Notes under the pieces: model-generated
What the model saw: the letters and a program-made list of their open reading frames with translations, nothing else
The model's database searches: none
What the model was told of the DNA's origin: nothing
Part shown: positions 20,945 through 44,529 of the stretch, piece by piece
Position numbering within the stretch: position 1 is the stretch's first letter
Layout of the letters: each line of letters begins with the position of its first letter
Position numbers and translations under genes: made by a program
Assembly (NCBI RefSeq): GCF_946227985.1
Contig: NZ_CAMKGL010000001.1
Span: forward strand, 62,001-126,000
From: Serratia quinivorans
GTDB taxonomy: Bacteria; Pseudomonadota; Gammaproteobacteria; Enterobacterales; Enterobacteriaceae
Length of the DNA: 64,000 nucleotides
Reading direction: 5' to 3'

Positions 20945-21907
20945 ATGACTTATGCCCTCGTAGGTGATGTAGGCGGCACCAATGCCCGCCTGGCGTTGTG
21001 CACTGTGGCGACGGGTGAAATTACCCAGGCGAAAACCTATTCCGGCCTGGAGTTTGACAGCCTGGAGGCGGTAATCCGCCAATACTTAAAAGGTCAGGAT
21101 ATCCAGGTGCAAGACGCCTGTATTGCCATTGCCTGTCCGGTCACTGAAGACTGGGTGGCGATGACCAATCATACCTGGGCGTTTTCGATTAAACAGATGA
21201 AGGCCAGTTTGGGGCTGAGCCATCTGGAAGTGATCAACGACTTTACCGCCGTTTCGATGGCGATCCCGATGCTGTCGCAAGAGGATGTATTGCAGTTCGG
21301 CGGTGGTAGCGCGCAGAAAGACAAACCTATTGCGGTGTATGGCGCCGGGACCGGTTTGGGGGTGGCGCATCTGGTGCACGTTAATCGTCGCTGGGTGAGC
21401 CTGCCGGGCGAGGGCGGCCACGTTGATTTCGCGCCGAACAGTGAAGAGGAAGATATCATTCTGGAGGTGTTACGCGCTGAAGTAGGCCATGTGTCTGCCG
21501 AGCGCGTGCTGTCCGGGCCGGGGCTGGTCAATCTTTACCGCGCGATCGTCAAGTCCGATAACCGTCTGCCGGAAAAGCTGGCGCCGAAGGACATTACCGA
21601 GCGCGCACTGGCTGACAGTTGTATCGACTGTCGCCGCGCCCTGTCGCTGTTCTGCGTTATTTTGGGGCGCTTCGGCGGCAACCTGGCGCTGAACCTGGGC
21701 ACCTTTGGCGGCGTTTACATTGCCGGTGGCATCGTGCCGCGCTTTATGGAGTTCTTCAAAGCCTCCGGTTTCCGTGCGGCGTTCGAGGATAAAGGGCGTT
21801 TCAAGGATTACGTGCACGACATTCCGGTATTTATGATAACCCATGGACAACCCGGTTTGCTGGGTGCCGGCGCTCATCTGCGCCAGACGTTGGGTATGCA
21901 TCTGTAA
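20945..21907 (+). CDS. glk: Glucokinase Glk
   Basis: 320 residues, ATP-dependent glucose 6-phosphorylation in the cytoplasm. ROK-related glucokinase motifs: the ATP-binding [13 protein letters not shown] near the N terminus, [39 protein letters not shown] and [18 protein letters not shown] chose the ATG at 20945 ([12 protein letters not shown]), as in E. coli Glk (321 aa); the long upstream extension of the frame has no homology. Confidence 0.96.
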
Positions 21908-21915
21908 CCATAACA

Positions 21916-21946
21916 CCGGCAAAGCAGCATACCGCTGTTTTGCCGG
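21916..21946 (+). terminator. Inverted repeat after glk, possible terminator
   Basis: The arms ccggcaaagcag / ctgttttgccgg pair over 11 of 12 positions just after the glk stop, but no strong T-run follows. Confidence 0.45.
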
Positions 21947-21996
21947 GATGATTTATACCAAGATTATTGGGGGATGAATCGTGGCGGCAAGTTCAA

Positions 21997-22512
21997 TTAA
22001 TACAGACTGGAGATATACGTATTAACAGGCTCAGGCAATAAGTCTTGTGGATGATCACCTCCAAATGTTGCCCACTTGCTTTTTCCGCTAATAATTGTTG
22101 AAGCAACTCGAGTATTTGATTCTGCATTGTATATGGTGATTTTTACTTCTATTTTGTCAGGTATGCCGGACCATTCAGTAGCTCTGTCTTCCCAGTGTAA
22201 TATCTGTGGGATGACGTAATACCCACGAATAATTGGGTGGTTATTCTTCAGGCAAGCAATGTCCTTGCAGTCTGCGAAAATACTCACATTATCTGAGTGT
22301 CTCGAGAAGGCTGCTTTAACGGCTGTTGCTGTACCATTGCCCGAACCTGCGTAACTATGAGTTTCATATACGCCATCAGCAGGTATTGCTATGACTATTG
22401 CGGTATCTTTAATTAAAAGCTCAGTGTTTTTTTGGATGTCATTTGTGTTGTATTTGGCTGAGCAACCAGTCAACAATAATATTGCAGAAGAAAACAGTAA
22501 TAAACCTTTCAC
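21997..22512 (-). CDS. Lipoprotein, DUF4823-like
   Basis: 171 residues. Lipoprotein signal MKGLLLFSSAILLLTGCSA with the lipobox LTGC, Cys17. The rest (IVIAIPADGVYETHSYAGSGNGTATAVKAAFSRHSDNVSIF; ASTIISGKSKWATFGGDHPQDLLPEPVNTYI) resembles the DUF4823 lipoprotein family, recalled rather than searched. Function is unknown. The gene is clearly more AT-rich than glk and the MFS gene around it, suggesting acquisition by transfer. Followed on the same strand by no partner gene. Confidence 0.68.
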   Translation of the reverse strand: MKGLLLFSSAILLLTGCSAKYNTNDIQKNTELLIKDTAIVIAIPADGVYETHSYAGSGNGTATAVKAAFSRHSDNVSIFADCKDIACLKNNHPIIRGYYVIPQILHWEDRATEWSGIPDKIEVKITIYNAESNTRVASTIISGKSKWATFGGDHPQDLLPEPVNTYISSLY

Positions 22513-22647
22513 TTCACTATCCTCGAAATTAAAATTCGCTCATCATAACAATGTTTTACAAGTCCAGAGTAATAATTATTAATTTCTTTGCTAATTATTT
22601 TTTTGGTTATGCCAATTAAAATTATCTCGCTATCAATATCTCTACGA

Positions 22648-22684
22648 TAAAAGGGGCGCAACCGTTAAGTTGCGCCCCTTTTAT
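22648..22684 (-). terminator. Terminator of the yhjX-like gene
   Basis: Very strong hairpin aaaaggggcgcaac / gttgcgcccctttt 12 bp beyond the stop codon of the MFS gene, with A- and T-runs on both sides. Confidence 0.88.
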
Positions 22685-22695
22685 CGTTTTAGGCG

Positions 22696-23922
22696 TTAGG
22701 CTTTTGCCAGATGCGCCTGCGAGAAGTGTTCTTCTTCCAGCGCGACCGCTTTCGGTGCCTTGATGAACAGGGTGATTATCAGAGAAGCCACTGACAGCAC
22801 GCCAATCACGATGAAGGTCGCATGGAAGCCGCCGAAGTATTTGGCGACAAACGAACCGGCCAGTGCGCCCAGACCGAAGCCCTGATAGATGATGCCGTAG
22901 TTTTTGCTGTGGTTTTTCAGGCCGAAGAAGTCACCGACAATCGCTGGGAATACGGTGATGTTGCCACCGAAGCAGAAGGCGACGGCGCCGACGCAGATGA
23001 AGAACAGGGTGTGGTTCAGAGTCAGGAAGCTCAGCGCCACAATCGCCAGTACGGTGATCAGCATGGTAAAGCTGATGACGCGCATGCGGCCCACTTTATC
23101 GGACAGCGTACCCAGAATAATACGGCCTGCGGTGTTAAAGATGGCGACGGCGGAAACGGTGTTGGCGGCGGTAGCCAGGTCCATCCCAGCCAGCTGTACG
23201 CCCATGTCTTTCACGATGCCAATCAGATACAGACCGCTCATACAAGCCGCGAAGAAGATGATGAACAGCAGGTAAGCTTCTTTGGTCGCCAGCATTTGGC
23301 GGACGCTGAAGTCATTGCCCAGGCCGCTGGTCCCTTGCTGTGCAGACTGGCTCACCAGTAGCGGCTCTTTCAACAGCAGGGAGCCCAGCACAATCAGCGC
23401 CATCACAATGGCACCCCAGTAGAAGAAGGCAGAGGACACACCAACGTCGGCAATCAACGCGGCGTTAACGTATTTGAACAGCAGGCTACCGCTACCGAAA
23501 GCCCCCACCGAGATACCGGAGATCAGCCCTTTGTTGGCCGGGAACCATTTGATCAGGTTAGACAGGGTAGAGATATAAGCGATACCTACCGCGAAACCGA
23601 CCACGACCCCGGCCAGCAGATAAACCATATTCAGCGAGCTGACGTAGGCGCTGGCAATCAGGCCCAGTCCCACCAGGATGCCAGAGCACAGGGTCAGGTT
23701 ACGGATCCCGAAGCGTTCCTGCAGTTTGCCGGCAAATAAAGTGGCGAAGGCCAGGAAGAAGCTGGTGATGGAGAAGGTGGTGGCGACGTCAGCGAGGCCC
23801 CAGTGGAACTTGTCGACCAACGGCTGGTTGAACAGACTCCAGGTATAGATAGTACCGAGACCCATCTGGCAGATGATGGTCCCCAGAACGATTAAGCTGC
23901 GATTTGCCGGTTTGGTGTTCAT
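22696..23922 (-). CDS. YhjX-like MFS transporter (pyruvate-inducible, putative monocarboxylate transport)
   Basis: 408 residues, 12-TM major facilitator of the oxalate/formate antiporter family. Strong resemblance to E. coli YhjX: GTIICQMGLGTIYTWSLFN, AGKLQERFGI, TLSNLIKWFPANKGLISG, CMSGLYLIGIVKDM, GTLSDKVGRMRVISF, FCFGGNITVFPAIVGDFFGL and KNYGIIYQGFGLG. In E. coli, yhjX is the main target of the YpdA/YpdB pyruvate-sensing system. Here it lies two genes from ypdAB and has YpdB-like operator repeats upstream (24072-24132). The substrate is unproven. Confidence 0.85.
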   Translation of the reverse strand: MNTKPANRSLIVLGTIICQMGLGTIYTWSLFNQPLVDKFHWGLADVATTFSITSFFLAFATLFAGKLQERFGIRNLTLCSGILVGLGLIASAYVSSLNMVYLLAGVVVGFAVGIAYISTLSNLIKWFPANKGLISGISVGAFGSGSLLFKYVNAALIADVGVSSAFFYWGAIVMALIVLGSLLLKEPLLVSQSAQQGTSGLGNDFSVRQMLATKEAYLLFIIFFAACMSGLYLIGIVKDMGVQLAGMDLATAANTVSAVAIFNTAGRIILGTLSDKVGRMRVISFTMLITVLAIVALSFLTLNHTLFFICVGAVAFCFGGNITVFPAIVGDFFGLKNHSKNYGIIYQGFGLGALAGSFVAKYFGGFHATFIVIGVLSVASLIITLFIKAPKAVALEEEHFSQAHLAKA

Positions 23923-24071
23923 GGCCGGGCTCCTTCCTGTGTGTGCGTTGCCGGGCGTTAGCCGTTGGCTGAAATTTGCGGGCGCTGTCTTGAACCCCGC
24001 GGTATGGGCATATTATATGGCTGGTAGTACCAGCCGACGGCGGATCGGGAATGAGTTGCACAAGGGAAGGA

Positions 24072-24102
24072 ATGAAATGCCTCTGACGGTGCATGAGCTG
24101 CC
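24072..24102 (-). promoter_or_regulatory. Predicted YpdB operator upstream of the yhjX-like gene
   Basis: On the minus strand two direct repeats stand 11 bp apart: the upstream one ggcagctcat (8 of 10) and the downstream one ggcatttcat (perfect). The published E. coli YpdB site, as I recall it, is GGCATTTCAT-N11-GGCATTTCAT. A further single copy, tgcatttcat, lies at 24123-24132. The pair is about 150-180 bp upstream of the transporter start codon. Confidence 0.75.
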
Positions 24103-24319
24103 GTTTTAAGGCTTAAAAGGGGATGAAATGCAGCGGGTGGCACGTGATCTAAATCAAGAATGTTAACGATTTATCGCCAATGCTCCGCCGGAGATTGTGG
24201 TTGAATTGTGAAGGATGTGGGGGGAATGCGTAAATGGGCATTGTTCCTATAGAGCGGCGGTCGGCGCAGATCTATGTTATCTGCGAACGGACGGGTTCCG
24301 CTCTGCAGGAGTCGTTGAG

Positions 24320-24667
24320 ATGAAAAAAATACTGTTGTTATTAGCTGCGTTGCTGTTATTGCCATGGGTGAGCCACGCGGACGTATCGATTGGCGTAAAT
24401 GTACCGGGCCTTTCATTACACGTTGGTGACCGCGATGACCGGGGTCATTATTGGGACGGTGGTCGCTGGCGCGATCCGCGCTGGTGGTCCGAACACCGGG
24501 GCTATGAATACCGGGGTTATGAACGCCCGCGCGGTTATTACTATGGCCCGCCGCCACGGGTGATTTATTACGGCCCGCCACGACATGAATGGCGTGATCG
24601 CCCTCATTACCGCATGCCACCACCGCCACCACCGGGTTATTACTACCGCCCAGGGCCGCGCTGGTAA
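24320..24667 (+). CDS. Secreted DUF2502 (YpeC-like) protein, second paralogue
   Basis: 115 residues. Signal peptide MKKILLLLAALLLLPWVSHA, then VSIGVNVPGLSLHVGDRDDRGHYWDGGRWRDPRWW, the same block as in the YpeC-like protein at 13638-14048. The C-terminal half is rich in Tyr, Pro, Arg and Gly with a poly-proline stretch (MPPPPPPGYYY). Function is unknown. It lies between the yhjX-like gene and ypdB and converges on ypdB, 10 bp apart at the 3' ends. Confidence 0.82.
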   Translation: MKKILLLLAALLLLPWVSHADVSIGVNVPGLSLHVGDRDDRGHYWDGGRWRDPRWWSEHRGYEYRGYERPRGYYYGPPPRVIYYGPPRHEWRDRPHYRMPPPPPPGYYYRPGPRW

Positions 24668-24677
24668 CGGCCGGCGA

Positions 24678-25412
24678 TTATAAACGCATCAGTTTGCGAA
24701 ACTCTTTCACCTTGCTGCGGCTGACCGGCACTTCAAAATCCAGATCGCTCAGCCGCAGAATATAAGTGTTGTTGAACCAGGGCACGATCTCGCGGATTTT
24801 AGACAGATTGACGCAGTAGGAACGGTGACAGCGGAAGAAATGCTCTTCAGGCAGGCGACCGTAAAATTCGGTCAGGTTCATCGGCATCACAAACTCTTCG
24901 CGCCGGGTATAAACCCGCGTCACTTTCTCATCGGCGGCGGCATAGTAAATGTCGTTGATGTCGGTAACGATAATCCGCTCGTCTTTAATCAGGTTAATGC
25001 TGTGGCTGCTGCGATTCGGTGCGCTGGCCTGCTCCGGTAACGTGGCGGGGCGGTTATGCAGCGCCTCCAGCTTCTGCAGCATGGTGACGATACGCGCTTC
25101 GTGATAGGGCTTGAGGATATAGTCAAAGGCCTCGATTTCGAATGCCTCCACCGCATGCTCTTTATAGGCGGTGATAAACACAATCGAAGGACGATGCGCG
25201 AATTTGCTGATGTTCTGCGCCAGCAGTACCCCGTCCAGCGACGGGATATTGATATCGAGAAAAATGGCGTCAACCTGATGGGTTTGCAGGTATTTCAGCA
25301 CGTCCAGCCCGTCCTCGAAGGTGGCTTCGATAACGATATTGCTGTGTTTTTTAATCAGGTAACTGAGTTCTTCCTGCGCGAGAAACTCGTCTTCAACGAT
25401 GATGGCTTTCAT
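24678..25412 (-). CDS. ypdB: Response regulator YpdB (LytTR family)
   Basis: 244 residues. N-terminal receiver domain with the phospho-acceptor Asp53 ([12 protein letters not shown]), then a LytTR DNA-binding domain (about 140-244) ending [17 protein letters not shown], nearly identical to E. coli YpdB. With the kinase YpdA it responds to extracellular pyruvate and activates yhjX. The gene start overlaps ypdA by 4 bp (ATGA). The matching operator lies upstream of the neighbouring yhjX-like gene. Confidence 0.94.
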
Positions 25413-27118
25413 GAGCGCTCCCCGACCGGCAGCATGTTGTTCTCTACCGGCAGTTTGCCGCCATTTTTGCTGATATAAAAGGCAATTTCGGTGCCGGGTT
25501 CCAGGCGACGGATGCGAAGCCCTTCGCCGTACAGCAGGGACACCCGGTGATGCACGTTCAGCAGACCGATATTGTGCCCTGGCATCTCGTTGCGGGCCAC
25601 CCGTTCGATGACCTGTGGGTCGATGCCGTGGCCGGTATCTTTGACTGAAATCCTGACTCGGTCACCCTGATCTTTCACCGCAATCACCACCACGCCTTTG
25701 CCTTTACAAGGTTGGATACCGTGCACGATGGCATTTTCCACCAGTGGCTGGATCAGCAGGCTGGGGATGCGTACCGAAATATCGTCATCAATGTCATAAA
25801 TCACCGTCAGCTTGGCGCCGAAGCGTGCCTGTTCGATGGCAATATAATCCTGGATTTGGTGCAACTCTTTGCGGATGTCGATTAACTCGTCATTCAGCTC
25901 CAGGTTATAGCGCAGGTAGCGTGACAGATTGATAATCAGTTGGCGCGCGGTATCCGGATTGGTGCGGATCGAGGACGAAATGGCGTTAAGCGCGTTGAAA
26001 AGGAAGTGCGGGTTGATCTTGCTTTGCAGGGCGCGCATTTCCGCTTTGTCCGCCATCTGACGCAGATGCTCAATGCGCGAGACTTCCATTTGGGTGGAGA
26101 TAATCTGCGACAGGCCGACCGCCATCACCTTCAGCGTATTGGTGATCTGATGGGCGTGGCAGTAGTAAATTTTCAGCGCGCCGGTCACTTCGCCTTTCTC
26201 CCATAGCGGGATCACCAACTGCGAGTGGATCTGCGGCGTGGCCGGGTTTTCCAGATTGTTTTTGATAATGATCTTGCCGTGCCGGATGCTTTCACGGGTC
26301 ACGCGACTCAGGCCTTCGCGGCCAATCGGGTAGGCTTCTTCCCCCACCCCGACGTAGGCCAGCACCTGATGGGTATCGGTGATGGCCACCGCATCGGCCT
26401 GAATGTCGTGGCGAATGATATCGCAGATGGTGGCCAGCGTTTCACTGTTGATATTGCGAAAATAAGGCAGCGTTTTGCGGGCAATATCCAGCGCCAGCTT
26501 GGCCTGGCGGGCAGCGATCACTTCCTTTTCGTCTTCCACGCTCTGCACCAGCAGCACGATCAGGCCAATACATACCGTGCCGAGGATCATCGGCAGGGCA
26601 ATTTTGGAGACGATATCCAGCCCCAGCTCGGTCGGCTTGGCCCATAGCACGATCAGCAGCATGGTCAGGCATTCACACAGCATGCCGCCGATGATCCCGG
26701 CGCGCCAGCGCTGTTCTTTCTTCACCTTCAGGTTGATATACCCGGCACCGATCCCGGCAATGATACTGGTGATCAGGCAGGGAACCGAGGTAATGCCATC
26801 GATATCTATCAGGTAGCGATGCACCCCGGCAATGATACCGGTAATGATCCCCACCCAGGGGCCGAACAGAATGCCGCCGGCCATGATGGCGATCACCCGT
26901 ACGTTGACCAGCGAACCTTCAACGTTAACGCCGGAATAGGTACTGAACAGGGCAAACAGCGAGAAGATGGCGGTGACCATGGCCAACTCCAGCGGCGTAT
27001 GGTCTTCTTTTTGCAGCAACTGGCGGAACAACCGGGTGCGGGTGAGGAAAAACAGGCAGATCAACATCAACGCGGCGCGATCAAATACCGCTAACAGCAT
27101 TTCAAAAAAGGGGTGCAC
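25409..27118 (-). CDS. ypdA: Pyruvate-sensing histidine kinase YpdA (LytS family)
   Basis: 569 residues, inner membrane. N-terminal 5TM-LYT sensor region (about 1-200) with several hydrophobic spans, a GAF-like region (about 220-350), then the kinase core with the phospho-accepting His in [17 protein letters not shown] and an ATPase domain ([23 protein letters not shown]). Length matches E. coli YpdA (565). First gene of ypdAB. Genomic neighbourhood with alaC agrees with E. coli, which separates it from the paralogous BtsS (YehU). Confidence 0.93.
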
Positions 27119-42405: not shown

Positions 42406-44529
42406 TTACTTCCCTCCCTTGCTTGAATGAATTTCAACATGTCGTTTCGGGGTTACGACACCAAGGTTATCTACATCATAGACAGCCCCGCCATCTTTTA
42501 TCAGTTTTACATGATGTAATTCAGCTTTAACCCTTTTCCCTGCTCGTTCGGTCTTCCGAACATACGGAGCTCGCCCATTTTTCATGGTGGCTAAGCTACC
42601 GGGATCAAATTGCTTGCTTAATGCAGGATCTTTACTCACCTCCTGCCAGAATGCCTTGCGGAATGCATCAAAGTTCGCAAACTCCCGACCACGCAGCTTG
42701 TCCGCAATCTGACTGGGGACTGGCGCACCCAGCTCCTGAGCCGCTTTATTCAGCCAACCTTCACCCACTTTCTGTCCCTTGCCGCTCACTTTCCCCGGCA
42801 TGTCTCGCGGGCTACTGAACACCACGTAAATCGGCTCAACGCCGGTACCCTTGGCATCAGGCTGCCAGTAGATAAAATCTTGCAGCCCGTCGGTCTCTGC
42901 GCCCGGTGACGTGGTCACCACGATATTTTCCACCGGCTTTACATCGGTGCCGGTATGCACCGGTGTTGCTGGTACCGGCGGAGCCTGATTACCGGTATTC
43001 GAGGGTGCAGACGGTGCTGCAGCCGGGTTAATCAAAACCGTCCGTGAAGGGGCTCCTGCTACCGCAGGCACGGTAATACGGTCCAGACCGGTTTTTTCGT
43101 CACGTACCGCCGTCAATACCTGGACGGTTTTCGGCACACCATCACCGGTTTTCAGCAGTTTCAGTGCCAATTGGCCGTTTGACATGACCAGTTGACCCCT
43201 TGCGGGCAAATCGACCGAACTCCCACCGGGTTTCAGCCCGTGATCTTTGGGCAGCATAATGCTGGCAGGATAGCTGAACAAGGCGGGAACATCGCGGCCT
43301 GGCACCTTGTCACTCCCTACACCCACCTTCGTGGAATGGAAGATAGCAGCCAGGGTAAACCCACGGGCAACACCGGTTGCCAGTGACAGTCCCCGGCCAA
43401 TGGTGCCCGCGAGTGACTCCGGCAGCGTCCCGCCCATCATTACCGTTCCGCTGCCTGCCACGGCAAATTGAACCGCACCCGGAACACGGCTCAAAGCCAA
43501 TGAGCCTGTATCCCCCATAGCGCCATTGGCTGCTTTCACCATTTCAGGGGTATATGCCGGGGCGGGATGCACCCCAACTTTAGCCAATTCTGCCGCAATT
43601 TTAGCTTTTGCTTCCGCCGCCGCTTTCGCCTCTGCCTCTGCGCGTGCTTTGGCCTCTGCTTCCGCTTTGGCTTTCGCCTCAGCCTCAGTCCGGGCCGCCG
43701 CTTCTGCCGCCGCTTTCACTCTGGTCTCTGCTTCTGCCTTGGCCCGCGCTTCAGCCTCAGCCTGGGTGCGAGCATCTGCTTCGGCTTTTCGCGCAGCTTC
43801 CAGGGTGATATCCGCCAGCCCTTTATCGACGTTAGCCTGATTAAGCGCTTGCTGTGCTGCATTTAATTCAGCCGTGGCGATATCAACCTGATTCTGGAGA
43901 TTTTTCAGTTTTCCATCCTCCTCATCCAGTTGCCCCAGATAGGTCGGGTCAAGTTGATACATTTCCGTGAGCATCGAAACCAGCGTTTTTTTCTCGTCAC
44001 GTGGAGGAATGGCTGAGGCCAGCTGTTGATTTTTTTGACGAATCTGTTCTGTGGCCTGATTAATGCGCTCCTGAGCTTCACGCACTTTATTTTCAGCCGC
44101 AGACACACCTATTTTTGAACCTTCCGCGGTCGCATTCGCTTTGGCTTCAGCTTCCGCTCTGGCTTTAAATTCGGCTTCGGCCTGTGCGCGGGCGCTGTCT
44201 TCAGCTTCTTTTCTCGCTGTCTCTTCCGCTTTTTGTTTGGCTTCCGCTGCTTCTCTTTCCCGCTTCAGCCGTTCTTGTTCTTCATGCCAGAGCTTTTGCA
44301 GATAGTCGCCGACTTCCCAGGAATCATATCCACTAATCGCATTTCCTAAATCCAGGCTAACTGAGCCGAATGGGTTAGCGGAACTAAACGGATTACTTCC
44401 CTTTCCGTCCCCGGCAGGAGTGACAGATAAAGTATTTCCATCCCACGCACCTGTTGTCGGCCACCCCCACTGCGCCCCATCCCACACCATACCTGGTTGG
44501 GGTGCGGTGCCATTGTTGTTATCACTCAT
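42406..44529 (-). CDS. S-type DNase bacteriocin (colicin/pyocin hybrid)
   Basis: 707 residues. Domains: a Trp/Gly-rich N terminus (about 1-75) with a TonB-box-like NTLSVT at 32-37; a long Ala/Glu/Lys coiled coil (about 78-320, TolA-like KAEAEAKARAEAEAK repeats); a Gly-rich segment and a pyocin-S translocation domain (about 330-560); and a colicin-E-type HNH DNase (about 578-707). The DNase is close to the E9 nuclease, with His672, His673, Asn688, His697 and His701 in ELHHVKLIKDGG...NLGVVTPKRHVEIH. AGGAG precedes the ATG. It is secreted by unknown means: no lysis gene accompanies it. The promoter has LexA and Fur sites. Confidence 0.93.
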   Translation of the reverse strand: MSDNNNGTAPQPGMVWDGAQWGWPTTGAWDGNTLSVTPAGDGKGSNPFSSANPFGSVSLDLGNAISGYDSWEVGDYLQKLWHEEQERLKREREAAEAKQKAEETARKEAEDSARAQAEAEFKARAEAEAKANATAEGSKIGVSAAENKVREAQERINQATEQIRQKNQQLASAIPPRDEKKTLVSMLTEMYQLDPTYLGQLDEEDGKLKNLQNQVDIATAELNAAQQALNQANVDKGLADITLEAARKAEADARTQAEAEARAKAEAETRVKAAAEAAARTEAEAKAKAEAEAKARAEAEAKAAAEAKAKIAAELAKVGVHPAPAYTPEMVKAANGAMGDTGSLALSRVPGAVQFAVAGSGTVMMGGTLPESLAGTIGRGLSLATGVARGFTLAAIFHSTKVGVGSDKVPGRDVPALFSYPASIMLPKDHGLKPGGSSVDLPARGQLVMSNGQLALKLLKTGDGVPKTVQVLTAVRDEKTGLDRITVPAVAGAPSRTVLINPAAAPSAPSNTGNQAPPVPATPVHTGTDVKPVENIVVTTSPGAETDGLQDFIYWQPDAKGTGVEPIYVVFSSPRDMPGKVSGKGQKVGEGWLNKAAQELGAPVPSQIADKLRGREFANFDAFRKAFWQEVSKDPALSKQFDPGSLATMKNGRAPYVRKTERAGKRVKAELHHVKLIKDGGAVYDVDNLGVVTPKRHVEIHSSKGGK

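Follow-up and report, generated by a model that had tools for sequence, protein, structure and literature searches.

Why does a yhjX-type transporter gene lie close to the pyruvate-sensing pair ypdA/ypdB in Serratia quinivorans, when the E. coli target yhjX lies 1.2 Mb from ypdAB? The stretch analysed here, hereafter the window, comprises 64,000 nt (positions 62,001-126,000 of NZ_CAMKGL010000001.1, from a genome of 5.33 Mb). A first-pass annotation had observed that sensor, regulator, operator and transporter occur together in the window and that E. coli yhjX is far from ypdAB, both of which hold, and had offered an ancestral arrangement or a secondary linkage as the explanation. This was the wrong choice to pose, as the linked gene belongs to another transporter subfamily and the trees point to an exchange rather than to a gene move; overall, its observation was partly confirmed and its interpretation partly supported. 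According to our analysis, the locus is probably a pyruvate-sensing unit with an adjacent target of a subfamily we call T1, the transporter having been exchanged under a conserved sensor and a conserved operator. This reading is based on homology, gene order, conservation and register of the operator, mutual exclusion of two transporter subfamilies and conflict between trees. Its three genes are confirmed and encode an MFS transporter, a REC and LytTR regulator and a 5TM-5TMR_LYT/GAF/His_kinase sensor:

22696-23922, minus strand: yhjX-like MFS transporter gene of subfamily T1, 408 amino acids (NF049980, MFS_1 and position in the transporter tree)
24678-25412, minus strand: ypdB (pyrR), LytTR response regulator (Pfam Response_reg and LytTR; D53 present)
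25409-27118, minus strand: ypdA (pyrS), LytS-type sensor kinase (Pfam 5TM-5TMR_LYT, GAF, His_kinase and HATPase_c)

Judged by identity, domains and synteny, the sensor pair of the window is orthologous to E. coli YpdA/YpdB (PyrS/PyrR), with 76.5% identity for YpdA and 74.6% for YpdB. YpdA combines 5TM-5TMR_LYT, GAF, His_kinase and HATPase domains (GAF 23.4 bits, cut-off 22.4), YpdB is a REC and LytTR regulator with D53, and alaC and glk lie in the same region as ypdAB, as they do in E. coli. The pyruvate pocket of the sensor BtsS is formed by R72, R99, C110 and S113 (PMC10653868). In our alignment the equivalents of R72, R99 and C110 are kept in 80/80 YpdA, and the S113 position is a T in YpdA of both the window and E. 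coli. Because the three equivalents are kept in all 80 proteins, pyruvate is likely the signal of YpdA. As a separate observation, the ypdB frame is broken in two S. rubidaea genomes (L023 and L093; longest piece used 140 amino acids), possibly through an assembly error, and T1 yhjX and the operator appear intact there despite the broken ypdB.

The transporter was correctly described as YhjX-like by the first-pass annotation, but, to judge from identity and clade, it is not an orthologue of E. coli YhjX. The two proteins share 44.6% identity and fall in separate clades, the clade of the E. coli protein (T2) excluding that of the window. The closest named match is from S. proteamaculans UME734 (99%), and most YhjX-like proteins of Paenibacillus and Clostridium are about 60-65% identical to the window protein. 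Besides MFS_1 of Pfam, it matches NF049980, the family of the L-lactate MFS transporter SfMCT, with 388.3 bits (curated cut-off 320), and stays below the cut-off of the oxalate/formate antiport family TIGR00890 (309.5 against 374.85). Seven pocket residues (Y116, N263, R267, F318, I322, Y346 and F349) are invariant in 80/80 YhjX, and equivalents of the carboxylate-binding Y119, N276 and R280 of SfMCT (PDB 6g9x, 6hcl), likewise an MFS member, are present in all 80 transporters. Since these pocket residues are common to all 80, T1 and T2 are probably transporters for one kind of monocarboxylate. The comparison with SfMCT also yields points that weigh against our reading of the locus and leave the substrate uncertain. 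H250 and D257 of the SfMCT proton site, a set that also includes D378 and Y383, are replaced by I236 and L244 in the window protein, several other pocket residues differ, and SfMCT transports lactate, not pyruvate (PMC6573034). For E. coli, a btsT cstA yhjX triple mutant is described as unable to grow on pyruvate, unlike the single and double mutants (PMC7730263).

The E. coli YpdB site is GGCATTTCAT-N11-GGCATTTCAT (PMC4847170, Table 1), in agreement with the first-pass annotation. In the window, the yhjX promoter displays three predicted half-sites with a 21-bp period, followed by a candidate -10 box:

24093-24102, minus strand: operator half-site 1, GGCAGCTCAT (8/10; sequence and genome scan, conserved in Serratia)
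24072-24081, minus strand: operator half-site 2 (central), GGCATTTCAT (sequence and genome scan)
24051-24060, minus strand: operator half-site 3, TGCAACTCAT (7/10; genome scan, Serratia conservation and 21-bp register test)
24012-24017, minus strand: -10 hexamer TATAAT, 33 nt past half-site 3 (sequence and conserved offset)
24123-24132, minus strand: half-site-like TGCATTTCAT (9/10), out of register (at least 8/10 in 12 of 14 aligned Serratia promoters)

Half-sites 1 and 2 are direct repeats with an 11-bp gap upstream of the target gene, the arrangement of a YpdB operator. The repeat reported earlier at 24072-24102, GGCATTTCAT with an 8/10 copy 11 bp away, is real and beyond chance: KGCANNTCAT-N11-KGCANNTCAT matches the window twice at up to two mismatches (0.18 expected), and at up to one mismatch it matches the entire genome twice (reversed control, 0). 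Both genomic matches lie in this promoter, where they overlap (24051-24081 and 24072-24102). The third copy claimed at 24123-24132 exists, but we rejected it as the third half-site, as it lies 30 bp from its neighbour, whereas 24051-24060, which had been missed, sits at 21 bp. The triplet scores at least 7/10 per site in 14/14 aligned Serratia promoters, S. marcescens 106R (GGCAACTCAC, TGCATTTCAT, TGCAACTCAT) included, and the repeats are conserved far beyond the genus, which leaves no room for the objection that close relatives lack them.

The -10 box is called because its offset is conserved across promoters. The best -10 lies 33 nt past the third site in 54/56 Enterobacteriaceae T1 promoters and 32-33 nt past it in 29/30 from Firmicutes; in T2 promoters the signal is weak (32 or 33 nt in 17/45). 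A sigma-70 scan did not list 24012-24017; its only promoter was on the other strand and scored below the shuffled mean. Further upstream, between yhjX and the divergent ypeC-like gene, the Serratia alignment contains a well conserved CRP-like palindrome, CGTGATCTAAATCAAG (24143-24158).

In order to see how the two subfamilies are distributed, 295 Enterobacteriaceae genomes drawn from the larger group were searched (E at most 1e-90 for YpdB and 1e-60 for YhjX). YpdB was found in 133 genomes, YhjX in 136 and both in 132. The transporters fall into T1 (66-100% identical to the window protein; 29 genomes) and T2 (39-49%; 107 genomes, counting the fragments in G237 and G112 and the broken frame in G239) with no intermediates. 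None of the 295 genomes carries both, which for T2 genomes rests on the window query with at most the six best first-look candidates scored per genome; a query with E. coli YhjX found no T2 in the 29 T1 genomes. T1 lies within 1.5 kb of ypdB in 28/28 genomes with a ypdB match, the 29th being an S. rubidaea genome with broken ypdB (L093). Among 104 genomes with T2, the gene is on another contig than ypdB in 55; its distance from ypdB exceeds 20 kb in 37 and is 1.5-20 kb in 11, and in one genome the two are adjacent. The unlinked yhjX of E. coli is typical of its own type, since T2 is unlinked in 103/104 Enterobacteriaceae genomes. Linkage as such is widespread, but does not extend to the Enterobacteriaceae with T2.

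An order-wide draw of 217 genomes (YpdB E at most 1e-60) contained YpdB in 29, and in all 19 of these from outside Enterobacteriaceae T2 adjoins ypdB, in two on the opposite strand. The window protein was further used to fetch 80 loci, of which 43 are from named Enterobacterales, 36 from Firmicutes and one is a short contig labelled Flavobacteriaceae. Homologues of ypdA and ypdB lie beside the transporter in 43/43 and 31/36 loci of the two large groups, respectively, one of the 31 (L065) having a divergent pair; the fetched DNA of the other five Firmicutes loci and the Flavobacteriaceae-labelled contig contained no ypdAB homologue. Paenibacillus and Clostridium possess ypdAB-T1 cassettes with the same operator. 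Gene order agrees with the tree evidence for exchange given below. T1 fills the interval between ypdB and glk in Serratia and Yersinia, an interval that holds six other genes in E. coli K-12, and in six T2 genomes (L149, L170, L173, L179, L182 and L243) glk directly follows ypdB, and yhjX-T2 is found on the upstream side of ypdA, past alaC in four cases. In one enterobacterial genome, G436 (L183), ypdAB and T2 form an entire cassette, the sensor of which clusters with a family other than Enterobacteriaceae; this suggests lateral transfer of the complete unit.

A tree of YpdA plus YpdB was built by a quick method for 80 taxa, using only genomes whose stretches had been fetched and only Shimodaira-Hasegawa-like approximate likelihood-ratio support (SH-aLRT). 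G262 and G304, with incomplete YpdA, were excluded from this and from the transporter tree. The T1/T2 label changes five times on the sensor tree, and its starred branches force five changes. In the YhjX tree, T2 forms one clade, and T1 of Enterobacteriaceae forms one clade beside Paenibacillus. Approximately unbiased (AU) tests, run on 31 chosen taxa of the 80, reject the monophyly of T2 for the sensor tree (p 3.65e-63) and a single Enterobacteriaceae clade for the transporter tree (p 7.15e-06). Because the sensor and transporter trees conflict, we conclude that transporters have been exchanged, with sensor and operator conserved. T1 and T2 have one operator and one predicted carboxylate pocket in common and replace each other across Enterobacteriaceae, which suggests that bacteria swap the transporter and keep the sensor.

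The exchange may go back to one ancient merger. An enterobacterial ancestor could have held both T1 and T2, after which its lineages lost one or the other; this would be a history within the exchange reading. T2 would derive from a cassette like those of the neighbouring families and T1 would be the gene beside ypdAB that is common with Firmicutes; both would have obeyed one YpdB, since the operators match, and repeated fresh transfers would be unnecessary. The adjacency pattern fits such a merger (in Enterobacteriaceae, T1 adjacent throughout and T2 displaced in all but one genome; outside, T2 always adjacent). So does the rough congruence of the T1 subtree with a species-marker tree of GltX, whose gene comes from the window (60 rows; G244 and G163 had no GltX match at our thresholds): the label needs three changes there (bootstrap range 3-3), two of them forced by starred branches. 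Against it, no sampled genome holds both transporters, so any state with two transporters must have been brief on each occasion, and T2 of some genera stands away from its species position, with modest support. Rooting the sensor tree on E. coli BtsS/BtsR and a divergent Priestia pair, with very long outgroup branches, did not settle the direction. We regard the single merger as a serious candidate, though one that falls somewhat short of probable.

The third half-site was assessed in 147 promoters, collapsed to 138 distinct ones for the final counts (the matrix means below still include nine repeats) and restricted to those with a clear pair (15/20). No such pair was present in 1/57 Enterobacteriaceae T1, 3/31 Firmicutes, 0/45 T2 and 2/5 other-family promoters; the T2 set comprises 44 of the 107 census T2 genomes plus E. 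coli K-12. At the 21-bp register, 51/56 Enterobacteriaceae T1, 44/45 T2 and 23/28 Firmicutes T1 promoters (118/129 in total) have a third half-site scoring 6/10 or better, with off-register rates of 0.056, 0.080 and 0.052, respectively, and 0.026 in other families. Relatives are not independent, and when each 75% cluster is represented once, the counts become 9/11 for T1, 31/32 for T2 and 8/11 for Firmicutes. A position matrix seeded with the E. coli site yielded GGCATTTCATTCC; the highest mean score falls on the central site in both Enterobacteriaceae groups and on the third site in Firmicutes. Four promoters (L082, with a broken yhjX start; L065, with the divergent sensor pair; G163 and G036) are below the triplet threshold, which includes the pair and is hence no proof of a third site. 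In L082 (Pectobacterium sp. PL152), whose promoter fails the operator test, the yhjX frame is incomplete at its start (282 amino acids).

The alternative is that YpdB uses two sites and that the third is a by-product of an extended pair or the site of another protein. The published model has two sites, A and B, on which footprint and surface plasmon resonance (SPR) data were interpreted (PMC4847170), and the outer sites score below the central one in Enterobacteriaceae. Other results likewise count against a three-site operator: the third site stays below 6/10 in 5/56 Enterobacteriaceae T1, 5/28 Firmicutes and 1/45 T2 promoters, in other families the pair is present in 3/5 promoters and the third site in 1/3, and the E. 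coli third half-site, CGTCATTCAT, reaches only 6/10. Yet three separate groups show the third site at a spacing of exactly 21 bp, more than 10 times as often as off register, and operators of three direct repeats for a LytTR domain exist in RcoM and CoxC (PMC11347149). These differ in that RcoM and CoxC are one-component CO regulators with 8-bp repeats (RcoM1: TTCNNGCA, with 12-13 bp gaps) and CoxC represses (PMC11347149). We consider the two-site alternative unlikely. In E. coli-type promoters the third half-site lies upstream of the published pair, in E. coli itself 21 bp upstream of site A, and it is contained in the oligonucleotide of PMC4847170. According to the SPR data, YpdB binds as a monomer and cooperatively, site A being essential and site B dispensable for binding (PMC4847170). 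In our reinterpretation of these data, the asymmetry fits a triplet if A is its centre, because losing A isolates the others and losing B leaves a pair.

A simple relocation, with T1 as the ancestral yhjX and an E. coli copy that moved and diverged fast, would dispense with exchange. Widespread linkage, the unlinked E. coli gene and the long branch to T2 (2.89) are in its favour, but the T2 proteins of Enterobacteriaceae cluster with those of other families (58-72% identity to E. coli YhjX), T2 adjoins its own ypdAB in 19/19 genomes outside Enterobacteriaceae, and the AU test rejects the single Enterobacteriaceae YhjX clade. Fast divergence after relocation is rejected by the trees and this test, and we hold the relocation to be very improbable.

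Across 40 genomes (19 T1 and 21 T2), a scan at up to one mismatch gave 99 operator matches, counted by hand. Of these, 57, including all 33 exact matches, lie in yhjX promoters, and no genome lacks one there. Because every genome's promoter matches and the exact matches are all found there, the scan supports yhjX as the main target, with further targets possible. The 42 one-mismatch matches away from yhjX, compared with 12 in the reversed control, weigh against an operator exclusive to this promoter. In 13/40 genomes a one-mismatch match off yhjX recurs, GGCARCTCTTCATAGCT..GGCARRTCAT, which resembles conserved coding sequence and not an operator. Six loci that have T1-like or related transporter genes but no ypdAB homologue within the stretch fetched (L050, L061, L063, L068, L079 and L083) provide a natural negative control: the operator is absent too, with best scores of 11-13 of 20, equal to background. 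Degenerate half-sites (7-10 of 10) would allow for a chance repeat without regulatory role, but its uniqueness in its own genome, its conservation in Serratia and in all 40 scanned genomes and the background scores at these six loci make this a negligible prospect, which the 40-genome scan excludes in practice.

Taking the locus as a pyruvate-sensing unit with an exchanged transporter, we posit the following mechanism, in which YpdB binding, activation and substrate are predicted. By orthology, YpdA would sense external pyruvate and phosphorylate YpdB. YpdB monomers would bind side by side at 24093-24102, 24072-24081 and 24051-24060, two helical turns apart, and recruit RNA polymerase at the -10 box 33 nt downstream, by which the MFS monocarboxylate transporter would be switched on. 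More tentatively, with a proposal that falls just short of probable, YpdAB may be an open slot, in which a sensor and an operator of three half-sites, both constant from Paenibacillus to E. coli, accept either of two transporters that separated long ago, one at a time. An incoming transporter would bring its own matching operator and be under control at once; the true switch would be the cooperative three-site array, not the A/B pair, and double occupancy would be forbidden, for instance by titration of scarce YpdB or by toxicity of double expression.

The linkage of ypdAB to a yhjX-type gene is partly published. Table 1 of Behr et al. 2017 (PMC5552118) flags Y. enterocolitica YE1226 and A. 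hydrophila AHA_0068 near their own ypdAB, and the locus tags of Y. enterocolitica (YE1228-1227/YE1226) and S. marcescens (GSMA_02299-02298/GSMA_02296) show the linkage, the latter in the Serratia gene order described here. That study took the target as yhjX, whereas we find a separate subfamily, and it identifies no YpdB motif in S. marcescens or A. hydrophila, whereas we find a degenerate triplet in S. marcescens 106R and other Serratia. The E. coli yhjX reporter was silent in both species (PMC5552118), and these two observations speak against our reading. The silent S. marcescens reporter is evidence against free interchange, weakened because a second E. coli reporter, yjiY, failed likewise in both species. 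The strain of that study is ATCC 13880 and the one compared here 106R. The degeneracy of the triplet probably explains why the Serratia site was overlooked. As only S. marcescens and A. hydrophila failed according to that paper, the E. coli yhjX reporter responded in Y. enterocolitica, and 12/12 named Yersinia loci are T1; from both we deduce that a T2 promoter can probably be driven by YpdB from a T1 species. The Serratia unit resembles the E. coli YpdA/YpdB-yhjX system in its orthologous sensor and regulator, half-site motif, 11-bp gaps and yhjX-type target promoter, and differs in that the E. coli target is unlinked and of the other subfamily and its published operator has two sites instead of three. 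Among the literature matches listed, with most subscription papers outside, none described the ypdAB-T1 cassette of Firmicutes, the existence of two transporter subfamilies that can be exchanged, or a third half-site for YpdB.

Two further features were read at the locus:

24320-24667, plus strand: ypeC-like DUF2502 gene (Pfam PF10697; likely start 24320 by eye, tool open reading frame from 24215)
22645-22686, no strand: terminator-like perfect 18-bp inverted repeat 3' of yhjX (read from sequence)

The DUF2502 gene lies between ypdB and yhjX on the strand opposite to ypdA, ypdB and yhjX, so one gene and not two, as previously stated, separates the transporter from the pair. In the Yersinia and Pectobacterium loci examined (L025 and L044), no gene of this type stands between ypdB and yhjX. 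The placement next to alaC was also mistaken: alaC is on the far side of ypdA, beyond a Gig2-like gene and an acetyltransferase-like open reading frame named by eye. Past yhjX follow a DUF4823 lipoprotein gene, glk and yfeO; in E. coli K-12, alaC, ypdAB (now pyrSR), glk and yfeO share one region. The inverted repeat is a possible two-way terminator and was absent from the list of a terminator scan, and an Rfam search of 21900-24700 gave no match at gathering score. By eye, an open reading frame elsewhere in the window (42406-44529, minus strand) resembles a bacteriocin of the colicin type, its C terminus being HNH-like.

YpdB has served as a model for DNA binding by LytTR regulators, and its two-site mechanism has been proposed as general (PMC4847170). 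With a conserved third half-site inside the published oligonucleotide, that mechanism is directly retestable. Transporter exchange would explain why E. coli yhjX is far from its regulator and the yhjX-type gene of others is adjacent, and the locus would represent a natural example in which the target gene has been swapped but the sensor, its signal residues and the operator have not changed. What is found for E. coli YhjX may not apply in Serratia, Yersinia, Pectobacterium or Paenibacillus.

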